From an uncultured Eubacteriales bacterium (lineage in GTDB: Bacteria > Bacillota > Clostridia > Lachnospirales > Lachnospiraceae), in contig CASFID010000065.1 of NCBI GenBank assembly GCA_949294665.1, positions 45,091 through 109,090 on the forward strand: a stretch of 64,000 nt of DNA, given 5' to 3'. Shown one piece after another: positions 31,933 to 44,346 of the stretch. Within the stretch, counting starts at the first letter, position 1. Every line of letters starts with the position of its first letter. The notes under the pieces are model-generated. The model searched no databases. It saw only the letters and a list, made by a program, of their open reading frames with translations, and was not told the origin of the DNA. The position numbers and the translations under genes were made by a program.

Positions 31933-34929
31933 CTACGGTCTTAACAGGTAAGAATATTCTGTACACACTGTCTCCATAAGCTTCTGGAGAGCATCCGGTA
32001 TCCTCGTCTCCTCTCCCTTTGTCCAGACGGTCGTCTCTCCGAAGAACCGTACCCTGCATCGCACCGCCTCTCTGTCAAGCACCGCGAACCCCTGATTGCT
32101 GCTGTCCTCCATATCCTTCTCATCCGCAAACAGGGTAAACTTATCCAGATAAGGTGCACTGTCGTAAGGACAGAAGCTTCTGCAGTTTCCGCATTCATTG
32201 CACATATAATCCACATGGATGATCTGGTGCTTCTCCATTCCCGGCACGCAGATGGAAATATTTGCCCGGTTCGGGCAGACCTCTGTACAGTTCTCACAGA
32301 TCCCGGAACATCCAAGGCATCGCCCGCTCTCTTCCTTTCCTTCCCTCTGGTCCGCCAGGACTCCTCTCCTGCCATAGATCTCTGTTTCCTCTGTATGTGC
32401 CTCATGATCTTTCACAAGTGCGCTGCCGATAACAGCCTCAGCCGCCTTCAGGCCGTCGCGTATCCCTTCTACCACGGTAGCCGGTCCGCCCAGGCCGTCG
32501 CCGATGACATAGACGCCGGGAAGGTTCGTCTCCAGAGTCTCTTCGTTGACGATCGCCCGCCCTCTGTCATTTACATTGATTCCATTCGCCTTATAGAATG
32601 CTGTCGGAACATGTTCACCTACCGCGGCAATGACAGTATCTGCCGGAATCTCTTTCTCCTCTGTTGTCTCCACAACGCCGCGTCTTCCCGATGCGTCGAA
32701 ATCGCCCAGCTGCATCACTCTGCAGACGAGCCTGCTGCCTTCCAGCTTCACCGGTGCCAGGAGCTCCATGAATTCCACTCCGTCATCAACTGCCATGACA
32801 AGTTCTTCCTCATCCGCCGGCATATACCGCTTCGTTCTTCTGTATACAAGATAAGCGTGCTCCACGCCTTTCGTCCGTTTTACGGCTCTGGCTGTGTCCA
32901 TCGCTGTATTTCCTCCGCCGATGACGACTACGTTCTTTCCGATATCAAGATCTCCGTCCTTCGCCTTGAAGTCCGCCAGGAACTGCAGAGCGTTCACCGG
33001 CTCTCCCTTCTCCAGCTTCAGCACGCCCGGCTCCGACGCGCCCGCCGCCACGATAACGGCTGTGTAGTCCGCATTTTTCAGCATGCTGATGTCGCTGATC
33101 TCTGAGTTCAGGAAGATGTTCACACCCATCTTCTCCAGGAGCGCCGCATCTCTGTCGATGGCGCTGCCCGGGATGCGGAATTCCGGAATCACATGGCGCA
33201 CCACACCGCCTAAGGCATTATTCTTCTCAAACAGCGTGACTTCCATTCCGGCCCTTCTCAGGAAATAGGCCGCCGCCATACCTGCAGGTCCTCCTCCGAT
33301 CACAGCTGCCTTTCCGGGTCTCGTTACGGCCGGCGTCTCAAGCTTCTCCATGAGTGCCCCATATCCATTCTCCGCCGCTATCAGCTTCATTCCTCTGATA
33401 TAGACCGGCTCTTCATAGAAATTCCGGGTACATTTTCCCATACATGCATGGGAGCAGATCGTCCCCGTGATAAAGGGAAGCGGATTCTTCTCGACGATGA
33501 CCTGGAGCGCTTCCTCATATTTTTCTTCCTTCACAAGCTGCAGATAGGCGGTAATATCCTGATGGATCGGGCATCCTTCTTTACACGGTGCCGTAAAACA
33601 GTCGATGAGCGGGACCTGCTGCTTCATCTTTCTGGACGGAAGCGGCTTCACCGCCTTCACATGGTACGGGCTGGTCTTTGCCTCCTCTGCCAGTTTTCCG
33701 GCTTTTTCTGCACTGACTCCCTCGAAAACAGCATTTTCTTCTTCCAGAAGGGACGCCATCTGCGCCATCCGGTCATATCCGCCCGGCTTCAGCAGCGTCG
33801 TCGCAACCGTCACCGGCCAGATTCCTGCATCCACGATGCCCTTTATATTATGAAAATCTGCTCCGCCTGAGTAGGAGATCCTCAGTTTTCCATCGAACTC
33901 CTCCGCCAGCTTCGCCGCAAGGGAGATGGACAGCGGATAGAGTGCCTTCCCGGACATGTACATTTCTTCGCTTGGAAGTTCATTCTGCTTCACATCCACC
34001 GGAAATGTGTTTGTGATCTTTACACCGAACTCCAGATTTCTCTCCCCGCAGACCTTCATCAGCCTGGTCAGCATGGGGACCGCGTCTTCATACTGCAGAT
34101 CGTCCTTAAAATGGAAGTCGCCGAACGCCACATAATCATACCCCATGTCATCCATGGTCTTTCTCGCATATTCATACCCGAGAAGAGTCGGATTACATTT
34201 GATAAATGTATGGAACCCTTTTTCCGTGATCAGATACATGGCGATCTTCTCGATCTCCTGAGGAGGACATCCGTGAAGAGTGGAGATCGTCACAGAGTTG
34301 CAGATGTCCCCTGAGATGCTCTCTATATCTTCCTCTGTAACATGCTCGAACAGATCAGTATTCCTGAGCAGGTACTCCTTACAGGACCTGAAGATCTCTG
34401 AATCCTGCGCATGCTTCATCGTATTCAGGAAGCTGTCGATCTTCTCTGACTGAATGCCCTCCAGATCATATCCCACACTGATGTTGAACTGAAATCCGTC
34501 CACGCTTCCGAGAGCGAACTCCTTCGCCATCACCTTGCAGAGGAACCACGCCTTAATGTACTCTTCCATCGCCTGCGGCACATACAGCTCTGTAGACCAC
34601 TCACAGTTATAGCACTCGTCATCCGCCTTGATGCACGGCTTATTGACGCAGGCCGACAGCTCCGCTCCGTCCATGATCTGAACCGTCTTCAGTTCGAAGA
34701 AACGGCTTCCCGTATAGTATGCCGCAGCGATATTCTGCGCCAGCTGGGTGTGTGGTCCTGCCGCCGGACCGACAGGCGTCTCAAGAGGACGCCCGAAGAT
34801 CGTTCTGTCATATTTTTTTTCGGCATGATAGGGATGGTGTGTCCCGAATACTGTGCCGCTCTGCTTCTTCTCCGTCAGAATCCAGTTCAGAAGCTGTTCA
34901 AAGGCCATGGGCCGCATTATATCACTCAT
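31933..34929 (-). CDS. ygfK: YgfK-type FMN/FAD/Fe-S oxidoreductase
   Basis: A 998-residue multidomain oxidoreductase, often annotated as a selenate reductase subunit but essential for anaerobic urate use in gut bacteria that carry this cluster. Residues 1-400 resemble an FMN-binding dihydroorotate-dehydrogenase barrel (TPVGPAAGPHTQLAQNIAAA, FFELKTVQIMDG, STLHGCPPQEIEKIA). Residues about 440-540 carry GltD-type Fe-S cysteines (CTAPCKEGCPIHQDI, ICSHACMGKCTRN). FAD and NAD(P) folds follow (AVIGGGPAGMAAAYFLRRAG, VVVIGGGNTAMDTARAVKR), then a ferredoxin tail (CLGCSGICENCTEVCP, CNECGNCRSFCP). These are the domains of dihydropyrimidine dehydrogenase in permuted order, suggesting it reduces a purine ring double bond using NAD(P)H or ferredoxin; this is inference. 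Confidence 0.92.
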   Translation of the reverse strand: MSDIMRPMAFEQLLNWILTEKKQSGTVFGTHHPYHAEKKYDRTIFGRPLETPVGPAAGPHTQLAQNIAAAYYTGSRFFELKTVQIMDGAELSACVNKPCIKADDECYNCEWSTELYVPQAMEEYIKAWFLCKVMAKEFALGSVDGFQFNISVGYDLEGIQSEKIDSFLNTMKHAQDSEIFRSCKEYLLRNTDLFEHVTEEDIESISGDICNSVTISTLHGCPPQEIEKIAMYLITEKGFHTFIKCNPTLLGYEYARKTMDDMGYDYVAFGDFHFKDDLQYEDAVPMLTRLMKVCGERNLEFGVKITNTFPVDVKQNELPSEEMYMSGKALYPLSISLAAKLAEEFDGKLRISYSGGADFHNIKGIVDAGIWPVTVATTLLKPGGYDRMAQMASLLEEENAVFEGVSAEKAGKLAEEAKTSPYHVKAVKPLPSRKMKQQVPLIDCFTAPCKEGCPIHQDITAYLQLVKEEKYEEALQVIVEKNPLPFITGTICSHACMGKCTRNFYEEPVYIRGMKLIAAENGYGALMEKLETPAVTRPGKAAVIGGGPAGMAAAYFLRRAGMEVTLFEKNNALGGVVRHVIPEFRIPGSAIDRDAALLEKMGVNIFLNSEISDISMLKNADYTAVIVAAGASEPGVLKLEKGEPVNALQFLADFKAKDGDLDIGKNVVVIGGGNTAMDTARAVKRTKGVEHAYLVYRRTKRYMPADEEELVMAVDDGVEFMELLAPVKLEGSRLVCRVMQLGDFDASGRRGVVETTEEKEIPADTVIAAVGEHVPTAFYKANGINVNDRGRAIVNEETLETNLPGVYVIGDGLGGPATVVEGIRDGLKAAEAVIGSALVKDHEAHTEETEIYGRRGVLADQREGKEESGRCLGCSGICENCTEVCPNRANISICVPGMEKHQIIHVDYMCNECGNCRSFCPYDSAPYLDKFTLFADEKDMEDSSNQGFAVLDREAVRCRVRFFGETTVWTKGEETRIPDALQKLMETVCTEYSYLLRP

Positions 34930-34961: not shown

Positions 34962-36392
34962 CTACTCTGCTCCCGGCTTGTCTTTCGGCAGGATCAGATT
35001 CAGGATCACCGCAAAGATCGTTGCCAGGACAACCGGCGAAGATGCAAATGTATTATTAATGATAGACTGGAAACTCTCCAGGCTCATGCTCATGTTCAGT
35101 GCATTGTGGATGCTGGCTGACATCTGGTTCAAACATCCGTCGTTTAAGGATACGCCCATTCCGATGGCGATGGACAGTCCTGCCACTGTTGTGTTGCGGT
35201 ACGTCAGTTTCTCTGTCACGAGCAGCTTGATTCCTGTCATTGCGATTGAAGCGAACACAGAAGCGACCGCTCCGCCGAGCACGCACTGCGGAATTGTCCG
35301 GAGCAGTGCGGAGAATTTCGGGATCAGTCCCGCGATCAGCAGGATCACTGCGGCTGCGGAAAATACTCTTCTCGCGATAACCTTTGTAGATCCTACGATA
35401 CCTACGTTCTGGCTGTATGTAGCCGTCGGAGGACACCCGAAGAATGCGCCTACGATGTTGCTGGCTCCGTATCCGATGATACCGCCGTTCAGTTCATCAT
35501 CCGTCGGCAGTCTGTCCATACCGCCGCTGGTCGTTGCCGAGAAATCTCCCATTGCCTGGATCGAGTTGACAAGGAACAGGATCGCCAGCGGGAGGATGGC
35601 TGAAATATCGAACTTCATGCCGAATGCAAGCGGCATCGGAATCTGAAACCATCCTGCGGAAGAGAGTGTTGAGAAGTCCACCATTCCGAAGCACAGTGCC
35701 ACCACATATCCGCAGAGCAGGCCGATCAGGATGGAGGCCAGCTTAAACAGGCCCTTTCCATAATGGTTCAGGAGCACCACGATGATCAGTGTGATAAATG
35801 CCACCAGCCAGTTCTGCCAGGAGCCGTATACGAGCGCCTCTGTCTTTCCCTGCTGCTCCACGATCAGTTCATAGGTGTTGGATGAGTTTCCTGCCATATA
35901 GTTGACTGCCGTACTATAGAGGGAGAGTCCGATCGCCAGGATCACAGTACCGATGACAAGCGGGGGAAACACTTTCCTTATCTGCCTTATCGTCAGACCG
36001 ACGATGATCGCGACAACGCCGCCGATTACCATGGCGCCGAATATGGTATCCACGTCCTTCGCCTGCGCCGCGATTGCAGTCATCGTCGGAACATATGCAA
36101 AGCTGACTCCGATGATGACCGGGAGTCCGGATCCCATTTTTATCCTGCTTCCATATAACTGCAGCAGCGTCGAGAGCGCCGCGAACACAAGGGAAACCTG
36201 GATCAGAAGTCCCATGTCCACATTTCCGCCCGCATTATTCGCCGCATTCGCCACGAGGATCGCCGGAGTAACGCATCCGACTACCGCGGCGAGCACATGC
36301 TGGGCTGCCAGAGGCAGTGTCTGTCCCATGGACGGACTGCCATTCCATTTAAAAAGTTCTGAATTGTCTTTTGCTGCCTTTTTGCCGTTCAT
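34962..36392 (-). CDS. NCS2-family purine (urate/xanthine) permease
   Basis: A 476-residue membrane carrier of the nucleobase-cation symporter 2 family (UacT/XanQ/PbuX group). Visible segments include the start of the core, LAAQHVLAAVVGCVTPAILV, the substrate-site helix region NSIQAMGDFSATTSGGMD with the conserved glutamine, and the family signature GAFFGCPPTATYSQNVGIVGSTKVIARR. There are about 14 hydrophobic stretches, some broken. Uptake of urate or xanthine fits the operon; the precise substrate cannot be read from sequence. It lies between ssnA and ygfK with a normal site AAAGGAATAAG. Confidence 0.92.
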   Translation of the reverse strand: MNGKKAAKDNSELFKWNGSPSMGQTLPLAAQHVLAAVVGCVTPAILVANAANNAGGNVDMGLLIQVSLVFAALSTLLQLYGSRIKMGSGLPVIIGVSFAYVPTMTAIAAQAKDVDTIFGAMVIGGVVAIIVGLTIRQIRKVFPPLVIGTVILAIGLSLYSTAVNYMAGNSSNTYELIVEQQGKTEALVYGSWQNWLVAFITLIIVVLLNHYGKGLFKLASILIGLLCGYVVALCFGMVDFSTLSSAGWFQIPMPLAFGMKFDISAILPLAILFLVNSIQAMGDFSATTSGGMDRLPTDDELNGGIIGYGASNIVGAFFGCPPTATYSQNVGIVGSTKVIARRVFSAAAVILLIAGLIPKFSALLRTIPQCVLGGAVASVFASIAMTGIKLLVTEKLTYRNTTVAGLSIAIGMGVSLNDGCLNQMSASIHNALNMSMSLESFQSIINNTFASSPVVLATIFAVILNLILPKDKPGAE

Positions 36393-36467
36393 TTTCTTAT
36401 TCCTTTCTCTTCAAGCCTTTTGTCTTGTTTCTTGCAGGACCGGATCTTTCCCGTGCGGTCCGCTGCC

Positions 36468-37802
36468 TTACCGGCTGTTGATCCTGTCCGCCAGCTCAGC
36501 CGCCGCCTGCCTGCAGTCTGCCATGATCTTCTCTTCATCGATCTGTGTGAGCTGTCTGTCCTTCATAAGGACCTTTCCGTTGGCCACTGTGGTCACCACG
36601 TCATGTCCGGTCACGCCGAACACAAGATGACCGTTGATATTGCCTGCATTCATCGGTGTGAGCGGATCATAGTCCACAATGATCACATCTCCTGCCGCGC
36701 CTTCCTTCAGAACGCCCAGTTCCTGCGGGAAATATCTCCCGGCGATCCTGGCGTTGTTCTTAAAGAGCATCTCCGGCACTTCCGCCCACGCTGCGTTGGG
36801 ATCGCAGAGATGATGCTTGTGCAGGACGTTCGCCACCTTGAAGGATTCCATCATATCATGGGTGTATCCGTCGGTCCCGAGCCCGGTGAGGATGCCCCGG
36901 TGCACCAGCTCCATCGTAGGAGGACATCCGCAGGCATTTCCCATATTTGACTCCGGATTATGCACCACCATGGTATCCGTCTCCCTGATCAGGTCCATCT
37001 CATGGGGATTGATATAGATGCAGTGTCCCAGGAGCGTCTTCTCTCCGAGAATCCCGTGATCCATCAGGCGGTCCACGATCCGTTTTCCATAATGCTTCAG
37101 GCAGTGGTGAAGATCTTCGATCCCCTCTGCGACATGGATATGATACCCGACCTCATCCGGCTTGTTCTCCGCGGCAAATTCAAATGTCTCATCCGAGATA
37201 GTGAACTGTGCGTGCATGCCCATCATGCCGGCGATCATCCCAGTGTCATCCTTCAGCGCATGACGGATGAATTCTGCATTTTCCATGACTGACTCTCTCG
37301 CCTTGTCCATTCCGTCCCGGTCTGAGATCTCATAGCAGAGACAAGAGCGCACGCCGGTCTCCTTCGCCGCCCTCTCGATCTCAAAGAGCGATCCCCTTAT
37401 GGAGCCGAAGCTGGCATGGTGATCGAACACTGTCGTCACACCGTTCTTGATACTGTCAATATAAGTAGCCATAGCGCTCAAATATGTATCGTGGAGCGTC
37501 AGGTTTCTGTCGATCGTCCACCACATTCCATCCAGGATATCGAGAAATCCCTTCGGGTCATACCCCCTGATCGAAAGTCCTCTTGCGAACGAGCTGTAAA
37601 TATGCTCGTGCACATTGATAAATGCCGGCATGATCAGGCCGCCCGCCGCATCTATGTACTCTGCCCCCGGATATGCCTTTCTTACCTCTTCGTCGCCGCC
37701 CACCTTACAGATCGCGGTTCCGTCGATCGCCACTGCCCCGTTCTTGATCAGCGGACATGCATCATCTCTTGTGATAACTCTTCCATTACCTAAAATCAGC
37801 AT
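36468..37802 (-). CDS. ssnA: SsnA-type aminohydrolase
   Basis: A 444-residue metal-dependent amidohydrolase of the ATZ/TRZ-guanine deaminase group. The N-terminal LILGNGRVITRDD leads to PAFINVHEHIYSSFARGL, in which HEH replaces the common HxH, then HIHVAEG, LLGHCIYINPHEMDL and GLGTDGYTHDMMES, the zinc-binding and catalytic residues. SsnA is a fixed member of the anaerobic purine cluster and probably hydrolyses an amino or ureido group of an intermediate; its substrate is not settled. It is the first gene of the leftward operon, with GGAGAATG before the start and the symmetric control region at 37,899-38,250 upstream. Confidence 0.93.
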   Translation of the reverse strand: MLILGNGRVITRDDACPLIKNGAVAIDGTAICKVGGDEEVRKAYPGAEYIDAAGGLIMPAFINVHEHIYSSFARGLSIRGYDPKGFLDILDGMWWTIDRNLTLHDTYLSAMATYIDSIKNGVTTVFDHHASFGSIRGSLFEIERAAKETGVRSCLCYEISDRDGMDKARESVMENAEFIRHALKDDTGMIAGMMGMHAQFTISDETFEFAAENKPDEVGYHIHVAEGIEDLHHCLKHYGKRIVDRLMDHGILGEKTLLGHCIYINPHEMDLIRETDTMVVHNPESNMGNACGCPPTMELVHRGILTGLGTDGYTHDMMESFKVANVLHKHHLCDPNAAWAEVPEMLFKNNARIAGRYFPQELGVLKEGAAGDVIIVDYDPLTPMNAGNINGHLVFGVTGHDVVTTVANGKVLMKDRQLTQIDEEKIMADCRQAAAELADRINSR

Positions 37803-37898
37803 GTTTCATTCTCCTTTTTATTTATTTTTACATACCATTTTCAGCACGCTCGGACAGATCTCTGTGCAATTCGCACACCAATCCTGGTCGTTGTCTAT

Positions 37899-37927
37899 AG
37901 AATAACATTAATAATGTATAAATGCAA
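37899..37927 (-). promoter_or_regulatory. Promoter of the ssnA operon
   Basis: Minus-strand -35 TTGCAT (37922-37927), 17-bp spacer, -10 TATTCT (37899-37904). Operator 37936-37950 begins 8 bp upstream of the -35. The leader is about 90 nt; no purine riboswitch is visible in it. Confidence 0.65.
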
Positions 37928-37935
37928 CAACGGTG

Positions 37936-37970
37936 CTAAATAATTTTTAGAGCATCTAAAAAATTTTTAG
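37936..37970. promoter_or_regulatory. Operator pair for the ssnA promoter (CTAAA-N5-TTTAG)
   Basis: Two 15-bp near-perfect palindromes: CTAAATAATTTTTAG (37936-37950) and CTAAAAAATTTTTAG (37956-37970), starting 20 bp apart, two helical turns. They mirror the pair at 38180-38214. Upstream placement next to the -35 suggests activation by the adjacent YheO-type regulator. Confidence 0.75.
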
Positions 37971-38005
37971 GATACTTTCGGACACTCCACGCCTTTAGCA
38001 GAAGA

Positions 38006-38044
38006 AAAGGCGTTTCCACTGTCTGTTACAGAGAAAACGCCTTT
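38006..38044. terminator. Hairpin between the divergent promoters
   Basis: AAAGGCGTTT (38006-38015) and AAACGCCTTT (38035-38044) form a 10-bp stem with a 19-base loop, T-rich on both sides. It looks like a bidirectional terminator, though no gene ends here, so it may insulate the two operons or mark an old insertion. Confidence 0.5.
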
Positions 38045-38179
38045 GTCTCACGGTCTTTTCAACCGGTCCTTTTTCATTTTTCAGACTCCTGACAGCTGCC
38101 AGCCGTCCTGCTATGGAGGTAAGTATATACAATTTTCAGGCTTCCGTCAAGACTGATCCACATGGCTTTTGCAGTGATT

Positions 38180-38214
38180 CTAAATATTTTTTAGATAACC
38201 TAAAAATTTTTTAG
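38180..38214. promoter_or_regulatory. Operator pair for the regulator-ygeX promoter (CTAAA-N5-TTTAG)
   Basis: CTAAATATTTTTTAG (38180-38194) and CTAAAAATTTTTTAG (38200-38214), again 20 bp apart. The second is the exact reverse complement of the site at 37956-37970. It ends 8 bp before the -35 at 38223, the same geometry as on the ssnA side. Confidence 0.75.
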
Positions 38215-38222
38215 AAAAACTA

Positions 38223-38250
38223 TTGACTCCGCCCTTTTTTATGCTATGAT
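38223..38250 (+). promoter_or_regulatory. Promoter of the regulator-ygeX-ygeY-ygeW-ridA-arcC operon
   Basis: -35 TTGACT (38223-38228), 16-bp spacer, -10 TATGAT (38245-38250). The leader of about 60 nt runs to the regulator start at 38318. Confidence 0.65.
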
Positions 38251-38317
38251 GGATTTAACGATACACATACAGAGACACATTTCTGCAGAATACTTTCAGG
38301 AAAGGGCAGGTGAAATA

Positions 38318-38965
38318 ATGGATCAGAAACTGGATTTTCTAAAGCAGCTCGCACACGGCCTTGCGGTTCAGTTCGGAAGCTCCTGCGAGGTCGTCATCCA
38401 TGATCTGACGAAGAAAGATCTTGACAAGTCCATCGTCTATATTGAGAACGGACATGTTTCAGACCGTCACACCGGCGACGGGCCTTCCGGAATCGTGCTT
38501 GAGACGCTGAGTTCGGATCCGTCCAGGATCAAGGATAAGCTCGCCTATCTCACGCGGACAGATGACGGCAGGATCCTGAAATCCAGCACGCTCTATATCC
38601 GCGACGAAAAAGGCCGCATTATCTATATCTTTTCAATGAACTACGACATCACCACCCTGCTTGCCGCGGAGAACTCTATCCGCGGGCTGCTCCGGACAGA
38701 ACCGGAGACGGATGCAGAACACGACGGTGCCGGCTCACCCCAGAGGATCACTCATAATGTAACAGAACTTCTCGACCTTCTCATCGAGCAGGCCATCGCC
38801 AAGGTCGGGAAACCGGTCGCGATGATGAACAAAGACGACAAGATCGCCGTGGTACAGTATCTGAACAATGCCGGTGCTTTTCTCATCACAAAATCCGGCG
38901 ATAAAGTTTCTTCACTTCTCGGAATATCAAAGTTTACATTATACAGTTACATGGACAAAGGATAA
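38318..38965 (+). CDS. YheO-like PAS/HTH transcriptional regulator of the purine locus
   Basis: A 215-residue regulator. Residues 1-120 form a YheO-type PAS sensor (FLKQLAHGLAVQFGSSCEVVIHDL, then IVYIENGHVSDR and the IIYIFSMNYDITTL strand). The C-terminal 65 residues are the helix-turn-helix (MMNKDDKIAVVQYLNNAGAFLITKSGDKVSSLLGISKFTLYSYM). The start at 38318 has GGGCAGGTGAAAT upstream; the frame open since 38246 covers the promoter and is not coding. It is the first gene of the rightward operon and the obvious candidate to bind the four palindromes between the operons, perhaps with a purine as ligand; this is inference. Confidence 0.88.
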   Translation: MDQKLDFLKQLAHGLAVQFGSSCEVVIHDLTKKDLDKSIVYIENGHVSDRHTGDGPSGIVLETLSSDPSRIKDKLAYLTRTDDGRILKSSTLYIRDEKGRIIYIFSMNYDITTLLAAENSIRGLLRTEPETDAEHDGAGSPQRITHNVTELLDLLIEQAIAKVGKPVAMMNKDDKIAVVQYLNNAGAFLITKSGDKVSSLLGISKFTLYSYMDKG

Positions 38966-38988
38966 TAGTATAAGAAGGAGGTTCCACA

Positions 38989-40194
38989 ATGGACACAATC
39001 AAATGGACAGTGAACAAAATGCCGAAGACAGCGGATGCCAACCTGAAGATCATGGGACTGGACGAGGTCCGGAAAGCCCGTACTTTCCACGAAAGCTTTC
39101 CCCAGTACAGCGTCACTCCTCTGGCAAAACTCGACCACATGGCAGCGCGTCTGGGACTCAAAGAAGTCTACGTCAAGGATGAATCTTACCGGTTCGGGCT
39201 GAATGCGTTCAAGGTGCTCGGCGGTTCGTTCGCCATGGCGCGCTACATAGCCAAGCAGACCGGGAAGGATGTCTCAGAGCTTCCTTACAGTGTACTCACA
39301 TCGGAAGAACTGAGGAAAGAGTTCGGGCAGGCCACCTTCTTCACCGCAACGGACGGCAACCACGGACGCGGCGTTGCATGGGCAGCCAGCAGGCTCGGAC
39401 AGAAGGCAGTCGTTCTCATGCCCAAGGGCAGCACGCAGACCAGGCTGAACAACATCCTGGCCGAGGGCGCCCAGGCTACGATCGAGGAATACAACTATGA
39501 CGAATGCGTGCGCATGGCAAATGCCATGGCGGAAAAGACAGAGAACGGCGTCATGGTCCAGGATACTGCATGGGACGGATACGAAGAGATTCCTTCCTGG
39601 ATCATGCAGGGATACGGCACAATGGCGATGGAGGCAGACGAACAGCTTCACGGATATGGCTGTGAACGCCCGACCCACGTTTTCATCCAGGCCGGCGTCG
39701 GTTCCCTTGCCGGAGCCGTCCAGGGGTATTTCGCCAACCGCTATCCCGAGAATCCCCCGAAAGTCATCGTAGTCGAAGCAGAAGCGGCAGCGTGCCTGTA
39801 CAAGGGAGCCTGCGCCGGAGACGGAGACATCCGCATCGTAGACGGCGATATGGTGACGATCATGGCCGGACTCGCCTGCGGAGAACCGAACACGATCTCC
39901 TGGGATATTCTGAAAAACCATGTAGATACCTTCACGGCAGTGCCTGACTGGGTAGCGGCACGCGGCATGCGCATGCTGGCCGCTCCGATCAAAGGAGACC
40001 GGCAGGTGACTTCCGGCGAATCCGGAGCTGCCCCCTTCGGCACACTGGCGTGCATCATGACAATGGATGAGTATCAGCCCTTAAGAGAGCATCTGGGTCT
40101 CGACGAAAGTTCAAAGGTCCTCCTCTTCTCCACTGAAGGAGACACTGACCCCGAGAGATACGAGTCCATCGTCTGGGGCGGGAATGACAGATGA
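38989..40194 (+). CDS. ygeX: 2,3-diaminopropionate ammonia-lyase YgeX
   Basis: A 401-residue pyridoxal-phosphate enzyme that cleaves 2,3-diaminopropionate to pyruvate and two ammonia. The PLP lysine lies in SYRFGLNAFKVLGGSFAMARY (about residue 70). Other fold-II features are TATDGNHGRGVAWAASRLG, the FIQAGVGSLAGAVQGYF phosphate-binding glycine loop and GESGAAPFG near the end. It is the first enzyme gene after the regulator, with AGGAGG seven bases before the ATG. In the purine pathway it delivers carbon to central metabolism as pyruvate. Confidence 0.95.
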   Translation: MDTIKWTVNKMPKTADANLKIMGLDEVRKARTFHESFPQYSVTPLAKLDHMAARLGLKEVYVKDESYRFGLNAFKVLGGSFAMARYIAKQTGKDVSELPYSVLTSEELRKEFGQATFFTATDGNHGRGVAWAASRLGQKAVVLMPKGSTQTRLNNILAEGAQATIEEYNYDECVRMANAMAEKTENGVMVQDTAWDGYEEIPSWIMQGYGTMAMEADEQLHGYGCERPTHVFIQAGVGSLAGAVQGYFANRYPENPPKVIVVEAEAAACLYKGACAGDGDIRIVDGDMVTIMAGLACGEPNTISWDILKNHVDTFTAVPDWVAARGMRMLAAPIKGDRQVTSGESGAAPFGTLACIMTMDEYQPLREHLGLDESSKVLLFSTEGDTDPERYESIVWGGNDR

Positions 40195-40331
40195 TCTGCC
40201 ATTTTCCGAACGCCTTCATAGACAGGAAACTTTTCAACTTTATCTGACCGGGCATCCGGACCTGCTTTCCCGGCAGCCCGGCGCCTGATGAAACATGCAC
40301 ACAGGATTTTAAGAAAAGGAGAATGAGAACC

Positions 40332-41642
40332 ATGGACCTGAACAAGATCAAAGAAGCTGCACAGAATTATGAGAAAGATATGACGGCATTTCTTCGCGCC
40401 ATCGTGAAAAATCCGGGAGAGAGCTGCGACGAGAAAGCCCACATTGATACGATCGCTGCGGAGATGAAGAAACTGGACTTTGACGAAGTGGTCATCGATC
40501 CCCAGGGAAATGTCATCGGCTACATGGGGACCGGGGATAAGATCATCGCCTACGACGCGCACATCGACACCGTCGGGATCGGGAATATCGACAACTGGAA
40601 CTTCGATCCCTACGAAGGTTATGAGAACGACACAGAGATCGGCGGACGCGGCGTATCGGATCAGTGCGGCGGTCTCGTATCCGCTGTTTACGGCGCAAGG
40701 ATCATGAAAGATCTTGATCTGATCCCTGAGGGATGCAGGATCATGGTCGTCGGAACGGTACAGGAAGAAGACTGCGACGGTCTCTGCTGGCAGTATATTA
40801 TCAATGAAGACAAGATCCGTCCTGAATTTGTCGTATCCACAGAGCCGACAGACGGAGGCATCTACCGCGGACAGAGAGGACGCATGGAGATCCGCGTGGA
40901 CGTCAAAGGCGTCTCCTGTCACGGCTCTGCCCCGGAGCGCGGAGACAACGCGATCTACAAGATGGCTGATATTCTCCAGGATGTACGCGCGCTCAATGAA
41001 AATGACGACGCGGACGAGACTGAGATCAAAGGCCTTGTTAAAATGCTGAACCCGAAGTACAACCCGGACTGGGAGGAAGCCCGCTTCCTCGGCCGCGGCA
41101 CGGTAACTGTCTCCCAGATCTTCTACACCTCGCCCAGCCGCTGTGCAGTGGCAGACTCCTGCGCGGTATCTCTTGACCGCCGCATGACATTCGGCGAGAC
41201 CTGGGAGAGCTGCCTGGACGAGATCCGCGCACTCCCCAGTGTACAGAAATACGGGGACGATGTGACCGTATCCATGTACAACTACGACCGGCCTTCCTAC
41301 ACAGGATGCGTCTACGAGATTGAATGCTACTTCCCGACCTGGGCGATTCCGAAGGATCATAAGGTCACGAAGGCACTGGAGAAAGCTTATACTTCACTTT
41401 ACGGCAACAAGAGGATCGGCGCAGAAGAAACTCTTGAGATGCGTCAGAGCCGTCCGCTGACAGACAAGTGGACCTTCTCGACCAACGGTGTCTCCATCAT
41501 GGGACGGAACGGGATCCCGTGCATCGGATTCGGACCGGGCGCCGAAGCCCAGGCACATGCGCCGAACGAGAAGACATGGAAACAGGATCTGGTAACATGC
41601 GCAGCTGTATATGCAGCCCTGCCGAACTGTTACTGCGAATAA
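40332..41642 (+). CDS. ygeY: YgeY-type M20 metallohydrolase
   Basis: A 436-residue hydrolase of the M20/ArgE/DapE group, in the YgeY family often labelled selenium metabolism hydrolase. Metal-site residues are visible in [40 protein letters not shown] and the C-terminal AHAPNEKTW; the dimerisation region contains [19 protein letters not shown]. It probably removes a carbamoyl or acyl group from an amino acid intermediate to release 2,3-diaminopropionate or its carbamoyl derivative; that role is inferred from its place between ygeX and ygeW. The start at 40332 is preferred because the ATG at 40323 lies too close to AGGAG. Confidence 0.93.
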
Positions 41643-41687
41643 AACGTGAACAGGTTTTTAATATGATTTTTAGGAGGATAAACAAAA

Positions 41688-42881
41688 ATGAAAACATTAC
41701 AGGATTACATTGATAAACTGAATGCCCTGAACTTTAAAGATATGTACAACGGAGACTTCTTCCTGACCTGGGAGAAGACAGACGATGAGCTTGAGGCCGT
41801 CTTCACCGTGGCAGATGCGCTCCGTTATATGAGAGAGCACAACATTTCCACAAAGGTATTCGAGAGCGGTCTCGGAATCTCCCTGTTCCGCGACAATTCC
41901 ACCCGCACCCGCTTCTCCTTCGCCTCCGCCTGCAACATGCTGGGCCTTGAGGTACAGGACCTGGACGAGGGCAAATCCCAGGTGGCCCACGGCGAGACGG
42001 TACGTGAGACAGCAAACATGATCTCTTTCATGGCTGACGTCATCGGAATCCGCGACGATATGTACATCGGCAAAGGAAACGCCTACATGCATGAAGTCGT
42101 GGACGCTGTGACACAGGGAAATAAGGACGGCATCCTGGAGCAGAAACCGACTCTCGTGAACCTGCAGTGCGATATCGACCATCCGACTCAGGCAATGGCG
42201 GACATGCTCCACATCATCCACGAGTTCGGCGGAGTTGAGAATCTGAAGGGCAAGAAGATCGCAATGTCATGGGCATACTCTCCGTCCTACGGCAAGCCGC
42301 TCTCCGTTCCCCAGGGCGTCATCGGTCTGATGACCCGTTTCGGAATGGACGTTGTGCTCGCCCATCCGGAAGGATATGAGGTGTTCCCGGAAGTGGAGGC
42401 TGTTGCCGCAGAGAACGCAGCGAAGTCCGGCGGATCCTTCACAAAGACAAACAATATGGCAAAGGCATTCAAAGACGCCGACATCGTATATCCGAAGAGC
42501 TGGGCCCCGTTCGCTGCCATGGAGAAACGTACAGAACTGTACGGCAGCGGCGACTTCGAGGGCATCAAAGAGCTGGAGAAGGAACTGCTGGCTCAGAATG
42601 CACAGCACAAAGACTGGGCGTGCACAGAAGAGCTCATGGCAACGACAAAAAATGGCAAAGCGCTCTACCTGCACTGTCTGCCGGCTGATATCACCGGCGT
42701 GAGCTGCGAGGAAGGCGAGGTTGACGCAAGCGTATTCGACCGCTACAGAGATCCGCTCTACAAAGAGGCAAGCTACAAGCCTTACATCATCGCAGCGATG
42801 ATCTTCCTTGCGAAGTTCGCCGATCCGGCCGACATCCTCAAGAAGCTGGAAGAAAGAGCGACGCCGAGGATCTTCGAGTAA
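41688..42881 (+). CDS. ygeW: Knotted carbamoyltransferase YgeW
   Basis: A 397-residue carbamoyltransferase. The carbamoyl-phosphate site is DNSTRTRFSFASACNMLG (about residue 65), followed by KSQVAHGETVRETANMISFM, DHPTQAMADMLHII and HCLPADITGVSCEEGEV near the C-terminus. The extra ordered segments compared with ornithine transcarbamylase fit the knotted YgeW group. In this pathway it would run toward carbamoyl phosphate by phosphorolysis of a carbamoylated (ureido) intermediate, feeding ArcC. AGGAGGATAAAC precedes the ATG. Confidence 0.95.
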   Translation: MKTLQDYIDKLNALNFKDMYNGDFFLTWEKTDDELEAVFTVADALRYMREHNISTKVFESGLGISLFRDNSTRTRFSFASACNMLGLEVQDLDEGKSQVAHGETVRETANMISFMADVIGIRDDMYIGKGNAYMHEVVDAVTQGNKDGILEQKPTLVNLQCDIDHPTQAMADMLHIIHEFGGVENLKGKKIAMSWAYSPSYGKPLSVPQGVIGLMTRFGMDVVLAHPEGYEVFPEVEAVAAENAAKSGGSFTKTNNMAKAFKDADIVYPKSWAPFAAMEKRTELYGSGDFEGIKELEKELLAQNAQHKDWACTEELMATTKNGKALYLHCLPADITGVSCEEGEVDASVFDRYRDPLYKEASYKPYIIAAMIFLAKFADPADILKKLEERATPRIFE

Positions 42882-43001
42882 ACATATCAGCTTCTGCGGA
42901 CGGAATATTCCTGCAGAGATCAAATCCATGGGCGCAGGAGAACAAAAACTGGGCTGCGCCCTGAAAATACATCAATAAATTCATCAGGAGGTAATCTGAC
43001 C

Positions 43002-43385
43002 ATGTTAAAATATGTTGAAACAAAAAACGCACCTGCAGCAATCGGACCGTATTCCCAGGGCATCGTCCTGAACGGAATCGCATTCTTTTCCGGACAGATC
43101 CCGCTTTCTCCCGAGACAGGGGAAGTTGTAGGGACTACCATCGAAGAGCAGGCAGAGCAGGTCATGAAAAATGTAGGCGCACTTCTGGAGAGTCAGGGCG
43201 CGTCCTTTACAGACGTTGTAAAGACCACCTGCTTCCTTGCAGATATGGGCGATTTCGCCGCATTTAACGAAGTATATGCAAAATACTTCACAGGGAATCC
43301 GGCCCGCTCCTGCGTCGCTGTCAAAGATCTTCCGAAGGGAGTGCTCTGCGAGGTAGAGACCATTGCTTCTGTAAAAGAGGACTGA
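43002..43385 (+). CDS. ridA: RidA-family enamine/imine deaminase
   Basis: A 127-residue protein of the RidA (YjgF/YER057c/UK114) family that hydrolyses reactive 2-aminoacrylate and imines to keto acids and ammonia. Motifs are [49 protein letters not shown] and the active-site region [20 protein letters not shown] with the conserved arginine and terminal glutamate. Its presence after ygeX and ygeW makes sense: YgeX produces aminoacrylate-type intermediates that RidA would clear. AGGAGG lies upstream. Confidence 0.94.
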
Positions 43386-43401
43386 TCACAGGAGGCAGGT
43401 T

Positions 43402-44346
43402 ATGAAAAAGAAGAAACGAATCGTCATCGCCCTGGGCGGGAACGCCCTCGGCAATACCCTGCCGGAACAGATGAAAGCCGTAAAGATCACATCCCGTGCG
43501 ATCGTTGATCTGATCGAAGAGGGCTGTGAAGTCGTCGTCGCTCACGGCAACGGTCCCCAGGTGGGCATGGTGAACAACGCCATGATCGCGCTCACACACG
43601 AGGATCCGCAGCAGCCCAATACGCCGCTGTCCGTCTGCGTGGCGATGAGCCAGGCGTACATCGGATACGATCTGCAGAATGCGCTCAGGGAAGAACTTCT
43701 CAACAGAAATATCACAGACATCCCTGTGGCTACCATGATCACTCAGGTCAGAGTAGATCCCGGCGATCCGGCTTTTGAACATCCATCCAAACCGATCGGA
43801 AGATTCATGACCAAAGAACAGGCTGATATGATGTCTGAAAAATATGATTATATCATGAAGGAGGATGCCGGCCGCGGCTACCGCCGTGTGGTCGCCTCTC
43901 CGAAGCCGCAGGAGATCATTGAGATCGGAACGATCCGCAATATGGTAGATTCCGGTGATCTCGTCATCGCATGCGGGGGCGGCGGCATCCCTGTCACGCG
44001 CCAGGGGAACCACTTAAAGGGCGCCAGCGCGGTCATTGACAAAGACTTTGCCAGCTGTCTGCTTGCGAAGGAGCTGGACGCAGATTTTCTGATCATCCTG
44101 ACCGCAGTGGAAAAGGCTGCGATCAATTACGGTAAACCGGATGAGAAATGGCTGGATGACATCACAGTGGATGAGGCGAAACAGTATATCGCCGAGGGGC
44201 ACTTCGCTCCCGGATCTATGCTGCCGAAGGTGCAGGCCGCCGTTGATTTTGCCGCGTCGAAGCCCGGCAGGCAGTCGCTCATCACTCTGCTTGAGAAGGC
44301 CCGCGACGGGATTCTCGGGAAAACAGGGACTCGAATCCATCTGTAG
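43402..44346 (+). CDS. arcC: Carbamate kinase
   Basis: A 314-residue amino-acid-kinase-family enzyme that converts carbamoyl phosphate and ADP to carbamate and ATP, the energy-conserving step of the locus. Visible are RIVIALGGNALGNTLPEQ at the N-terminus, EVVVAHGNGPQVGMVNNAM, RRVVASPKPQEIIE, VIACGGGGIPVTR and GSMLPKVQAAVDFAAS near the C-terminus. There is no argI or arcA nearby, so its carbamoyl phosphate probably comes from YgeW. It is the last gene of the operon, followed by a terminator at 44422. Confidence 0.96.
   Translation: MKKKKRIVIALGGNALGNTLPEQMKAVKITSRAIVDLIEEGCEVVVAHGNGPQVGMVNNAMIALTHEDPQQPNTPLSVCVAMSQAYIGYDLQNALREELLNRNITDIPVATMITQVRVDPGDPAFEHPSKPIGRFMTKEQADMMSEKYDYIMKEDAGRGYRRVVASPKPQEIIEIGTIRNMVDSGDLVIACGGGGIPVTRQGNHLKGASAVIDKDFASCLLAKELDADFLIILTAVEKAAINYGKPDEKWLDDITVDEAKQYIAEGHFAPGSMLPKVQAAVDFAASKPGRQSLITLLEKARDGILGKTGTRIHL

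Follow-up and report, generated by a model that had tools for sequence, protein, structure and literature searches.

Regulators of the PAS_6/HTH_22 (YheO-like) type include YheO, Campylobacter Cj1387c and DauR, which have the same two-domain architecture as the regulator encoded at the locus described here. DauR is a repressor, and Cj1388 is taken here to be a Rid-family protein, like the one encoded in the purine cluster of this locus. Homologues of Cj1387c are always linked to homologues of Cj1388 according to the available part of PMC4519771, and in the accessible text of PMC10717218 a YheO-like domain is mentioned in the introduction only. No operator sequence for any PAS_6/HTH_22 member was found in the literature searched, and a search for a positional precedent in TnrA returned nothing usable. 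Divergent promoters sharing one activator operator form a general class. For the purine genes themselves, the part of PMC6615313 that was available describes a Sigma54/DioR regulon comprising ygeW-ygfK-ssnA-ygeY in Clostridioides, Clostridium and Desulfotomaculum, in which largely the same genes are controlled as here.

In the window, that is, the whole stretch of 64,000 nucleotides that was analysed, two divergent gene sets of this kind are separated by a region with paired 15-bp palindromes. Judged from its conservation, this element is very probably a real operator module through which the adjacent PAS_6/HTH_22 protein co-regulates both sets of uric-acid genes.

Gene sets and candidate regulator

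The left gene set starts with ssnA (36468..37802, minus strand), followed on the same strand by the genes encoding an NCS2-family nucleobase transporter (34962-36392) and YgfK (31933-34929); a hydantoinase gene is also located on this side. On the plus strand, the gene encoding the YheO-like PAS_6 + HTH_22 regulator (38318..38965), the candidate binder, is followed by ygeX, ygeY, ygeW and genes encoding a Rid-family protein and carbamate kinase (38989..44346). The gene names given to the operons in the initial annotation were correct. The ssnA side and the regulator side are each assumed to be transcribed as a single operon.

The regulator matched the profiles PF08348 with 123.3 bits (cut-off 27) and PF13309 with 74.4 bits (cut-off 29.6), both above the curated cut-offs. 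A PAS fold was predicted, with PAS/LOV domains matched at E ~1e-5 in a fold search, while the HTH domain alone had no match at E 0.001 or better in the fold search; a PDB sequence search gave no match. Fis-like recognition, which the 15-bp AT-rich core had prompted, received no support from the fold search, in which no Fis was present among the 50 matches listed of 75 (E up to 10) and none of them was significant.

A second regulator copy was observed in the genus at L234-L237, 58-61% identical in these four. These copies adjoin a hydantoinase gene whose product is ~40% identical to that of the cluster, and CTAAA/TTTAG-like sites 19 bp apart were present at L236.

Palindromic pairs and promoters in the window

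The exact sequence CTAAANNNNNTTTAG (CTAAA-N5-TTTAG, 15 bp) was found four times in the window, with starts at 37936, 37956, 38180 and 38200. Site 1 (CTAAATAATTTTTAG, 37936..37950) is proximal and site 2 (CTAAAAAATTTTTAG, 37956..37970), starting 20 bp past site 1, is distal to the ssnA promoter; site 3 (CTAAATATTTTTTAG, 38180..38194) is distal and site 4 (CTAAAAATTTTTTAG, 38200..38214) proximal to the regulator promoter, none of them with a strand assignment. The start-to-start spacing was 20 bp within both pairs, and site 2 is the exact reverse complement of site 4. Across 100 dinucleotide shuffles of the window, a mean of 0.01 CTAAA-N5-TTTAG sites was obtained and four sites were reached in 0 shuffles; for the 35-bp pair with <=3 mismatches, there were 2 matches in the window vs 0 in shuffles. 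The four palindromes in two pairs with a 20-bp start spacing, reported in the initial annotation together with the reverse-complement relation of two sites, were thus confirmed as exact and far above the shuffles.

The predicted ssnA promoter (minus strand) consists of a -35 box TTGCAT (37922..37927), 8 bp from site 1, and a -10 box TATTCT after TGT (37899..37904), with a 17-bp spacer. The predicted promoter of the regulator operon (plus strand) consists of a -35 box TTGACT (38223..38228), 8 bp from site 4, and an extended -10 box TGC-TATGAT (38245..38250), with a 16-bp spacer. The distance of 8 bp between the proximal site of each pair and its -35 box, which had also been noted earlier, can be read directly from the sequence. 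A generic promoter scan of the window listed the regulator promoter and not the ssnA promoter, the latter being read by eye. With TTGACT, the extended -10 box and a UP element, the regulator promoter of the window looks strong by itself, which suits both repression and activation.

The region had been called mirror-symmetric. The two pairs do look mirrored, because every site is itself a palindrome, but they are direct 35-nt repeats in the same orientation (37936-37970 and 38180-38214, spanning 37936..38214, no strand), 86% identical, 244 bp apart and with a 209-bp insert between them. On the sequences compared, the mirror symmetry is a by-product of the duplication of a self-complementary element. 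An inverted repeat with 17-nt arms (38006..38044, no strand) is located within the insert, and the inserts of L029 and L031, which are different from that of the window, by eye also seem to contain an inverted repeat.

In most relatives whose regions were printed, a single pair is located between the -35 boxes in the order -35/8/15/5/15/8/-35, with 51 bp between the hexamers, and two pairs were present at 7/58 loci of the tree set. As judged from these alignments, the basic unit is one pair common to both divergent promoters, and the four-site form of the window is a direct duplication of it around the 209-bp insert. The single pair appears to be ancestral, since no Faecalicatena or Hungatella locus shows two pairs. 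On the regulator tree, the one-/two-pair label needs five changes, and L030 and L031 have identical regulator proteins, one with a single pair and the other with two, as expected if pairs are duplicated and lost by recombination. This suggests that the pair number shifts through duplication and collapse between the repeats, recently so in L030/L031.

A further palindrome (TGTGCAATTCGCACA, 37863-37877) follows the predicted ssnA start at a distance of ~15-29 nt. Its pattern TGTGC-N5-GCACA was exact in 24/59 ssnA-regulator intergenic regions and present with <=2 mismatches in 43/59, and it may represent either a binding site for a repressor or a hairpin in the 5' RNA. Three other candidates in this region were rejected. 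For a ferredoxin-like small peptide, suggested by CxxCxxxC in one reading frame of the ssnA leader, no usual start codon was seen, and what is conserved there is a palindrome; an Rfam search of 36000-40000 for a riboswitch or structured RNA gave two matches, both far under the gathering scores; and for a sigma54 promoter, the window contained one sequence resembling -24/-12 (37938-37923, 1 mismatch) vs 3.85 expected by chance.

Occurrence of the pair in related genomes

From 45 training pairs, a weight matrix of 35 columns was built and applied to the best 80 of 107 regulator-homology loci. The occurrence of pairs in related loci held for 67 of these 80, where a pair was found upstream of the regulator and was usually bp-exact to both -35 boxes, and did not hold for the other 13 (L076, L080, L087, L089, L091 and all 8 Blautia-type loci L096-L103). 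Among the 35 non-training loci of the best 80 of 107, the pair was present in 22, vs 26/1750 shuffled sequences. A family scan revealed more orthologues without a pair (e.g., L128, L129, L131, L176, L177, L179 and L180), and altered outer site bases were observed in distant relatives (e.g., ...TTTTTGTA). In other upstream regions, the pair was found in 0/61 for ygeX, 0/60 for ygeW, 0/41 for pbuX-like genes, 1/58 for ygfK (L081) and 2/63 for ygeY (L094 and L095, in which ygeY and the regulator are divergently oriented with a common upstream region).

On the regulator side, 61 of the 67 pair-bearing loci (best 80 of 107) have TTG beginning at a distance of exactly 8 bp from the pair; the exceptions were 7 or 9 bp in four, 10 in one and none in one. 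On the ssnA side, TTG was exactly 8 bp from the pair in 43/58 loci (43/51 usable), and the other 15 comprised 8 loci off by 1 bp (7 or 9) and 7 double-pair loci in which the scored pair was not ssnA-facing. The site-to-site spacing in M. massiliensis (L068/L238) is 19 bp (4-bp linker), with both 8-bp promoter distances kept. From these comparisons, selection seems to act on each site-to-promoter distance.

In the 3.59-Mb assembly, 8 exact 15-bp sites were counted vs 8 for a reversed control pattern, so the raw count is ordinary; all 8 exact sites form 20-bp pairs at two copies of the locus, in the window and on contig C36. The C36 copy (G000:C36:71500-82484, L009) is a diverged second purine locus, in which the insert between the pairs differs from that of the window and the promoter geometry is the same. 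Contamination with a contig of a sister species is possible, because the regulator of this copy, 88% identical to that of the window, has the same score and identity as the regulators of two sister genomes, and the assembly is given as 5.05% contaminated.

Across 58 congeneric genomes including that of the window, with <=2 mismatches allowed, the pair was present in 53 (63 pairs), and the reversed control gave 1 match per strand. The pair was located 79-348 bp upstream of the regulator in 61/63 cases, and the other 2 pairs were upstream of ssnA at contig ends. Regulator and pair were both present in 52 genomes and both absent in 4, with 1 genome having the pair only (contig end) and 1 the regulator only (L238, with the 19-bp spacing; Fisher p 6e-5). 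This association is with the cluster rather than with the regulator alone, because three of the four negative genomes lack ssnA and one has an ssnA fragment at a contig end; the co-occurrence was therefore downgraded as regulator-specific evidence, cluster presence being sufficient to explain it. At the family level, the pair was found in 14/250 genomes, 8 of which had it elsewhere, vs 15/250 for the reversed control, and these raw counts were dropped as evidence because the control gave as many genomes.

The pair was also scored at 12 ssnA loci clearly apart from the regulator (score >=1.5 and p <=0.02). Five of them carried it (G138, G133, G077, G088 and G084), with the pair of G088 being poor and the ssnA of G084 having an internal stop, and seven did not, some of which may be operon-internal. 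G136 also scored and was left out of the 12, as its ssnA and regulator each border a contig end and might be adjacent. The most clear-cut example is G138, with one pair in the region separating the divergent genes ygeX and ssnA and another belonging to the regulator, which is 215 kb off beside hydA; G077 is similar. The pairs at these distant ssnA loci are as predicted for a trans-acting factor.

For ssnA in genomes without a regulator match, a pair at score >=1.5 was present in 0/6 (SsnA 53-57% identity, more diverged); for equally diverged SsnA (56-58%) in regulator-bearing genomes, it was present in G084 and G162 and not in G069. The upstream regions of regulator paralogues (30-44% identity) gave 0/19 at score >=1.5, three of the 19 having p <=0.02 but negative scores. 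In the recognition-helix segment, most paralogues differ from the GISK(F/Y)TLYSY of the main group; L184 and L200 match it nearly or completely. Taken together, the 67/80 loci (best 80 of 107), the 0/19 paralogues, the 0/6 ssnA regions of regulator-less genomes and the separate loci of one genome support the earlier proposal of a single factor for both operons, the adjacent YheO-type PAS/HTH protein being the likeliest candidate.

Proposed mechanism and comparison with described systems

The mechanism considered probable is that the adjacent PAS_6/HTH_22 protein binds the pair as dimers and co-activates both reductive uric-acid operons; we infer which protein binds, that it does so as dimers, how the operons are organised, that the effect is activation, and what the ligand is. 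From the symmetry, one dimer would bind each 15-bp palindrome, and the two dimers of a pair would be neighbours on the same DNA face, separated by about two helical turns. The dimer 8 bp upstream of the -35 box (centre at ~-50 from the predicted start, with its partner at ~-70) would contact RNA polymerase and, on sensing of a purine or a pathway metabolite by the PAS domain, raise transcription. A single 35-bp pair would serve both promoters, so that the ssnA-transporter-ygfK and regulator-ygeX-ygeY-ygeW operons would be switched together, with positive autoregulation of the regulator operon; in the window, the pair would have been duplicated around the 209-bp insert, giving each promoter its own copy.

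The dyad-symmetric sites lie upstream of both -35 boxes in helical phase, and a bp-exact distance to two promoters is read as contact with RNA polymerase, and hence as activation, which makes activation by the pair-binding factor plausible. The same protein could instead act on the same operator mainly as a repressor, at least of its own operon, with dimers covering the UP region or holding polymerase at a strong promoter until an inducer releases them. This is rather unlikely overall, although the near-consensus regulator promoter of the window with its extended -10 box and perfect UP consensus would suit it, as would the repressor role of DauR, a relative by family. Sites wholly upstream of both -35 boxes are not the placement expected of a repressor, for which a bp-exact distance to two promoters would be unneeded, and in several relatives the regulator -35 box is poor beyond TTG (TTGATT, TTGCAA), so that activation is the more likely of the two from the sequence features. 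There is a small probability that the pairs are bound by another transcription factor, whose gene is located elsewhere and has been inherited along with the purine cluster: co-occurrence in the genus fails to distinguish the regulator from the cluster, but the pair is found upstream of the regulator even where its neighbour is hydA and not ssnA (G138 and G077), and it was absent from all six ssnA regions of genomes lacking a regulator match.

The sites might also be a UP element of RNA polymerase acting without a dedicated factor. UP elements are A/T tracts at -59 to -38 in the available parts of PMC4390567 and PMC5664571, the latter giving the consensus -59 NNAAAWWTWTTTTNNAAAANNN -38. Site 4 with its next 7 bases makes up the full consensus, as the regulator-side CTAAAAATTTTTTAGAAAAACT fits it in register at every specified base, and both share the A/T tracts. 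The sites of the window are unlike a UP element in their dyad symmetry, their C/G ends, the second site farther upstream, beyond the UP region, and their concentration at the locus. The ssnA side has one distal mismatch to the consensus and no proximal A-tract; the perfect UP-TTG pattern was found in the whole genome only at the two copies of the locus, with 3 more places at one mismatch; and in some distant relatives the tracts and the 8-bp distance are preserved though the spacer is TTTTCCTC or similar. The positions C1, T2, A14 and G15, which are free in the UP consensus, were the same in 46/46 proximal sites, which is weaker evidence than it appears because picking sites with <=1 motif mismatch favours it and the outer bases change in distant relatives. 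UP elements on their own give no ready explanation for the second site, for the ssnA side or for the concentration at the locus, and they leave the absence of the pair near paralogues unexplained; this reading is very improbable.

Operator and UP element may be one sequence on the regulator side. Extended to a general proposal, the PAS_6/HTH_22 operator would double as a UP element, with regulator dimers and the polymerase alpha subunit using the same A/T tracts, a metabolite-sensing PAS protein gating both divergent operons from one 35-bp element, and repeated duplication and collapse uncoupling and recoupling the operons among gut Lachnospiraceae. This proposal is tentative and, as a whole, possible but doubtful.

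Under the preferred reading, in which the adjacent regulator binds the pair and co-activates both operons, Mediterraneibacter, Faecalicatena, Hungatella and relatives have a defined candidate operator, a candidate regulator identified by name and a regulon that can be predicted, with the same operator layout recurring in many related gut bacteria. Several of these relatives come from records naming chicken, an animal that excretes uric acid. As far as the literature searched goes, the pair would be the first PAS_6/HTH_22 operator defined by sequence conservation. Compared with the Sigma54/DioR regulon, which in the available text relies on sigma54 and an enhancer-binding protein, the window has sigma70-type promoters with adjacent palindromes, which suggests a different wiring here for gene sets that in Clostridium are reported under sigma54/DioR. 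Like other divergent promoters with a common activator, this locus has one operator region between the promoters and the regulator encoded on one side; it is unlike that class in the symmetrical arrangement of two adjoining 15-bp dyads, with 8 bp to each -35 box, and in the doubling of the pair in some relatives.
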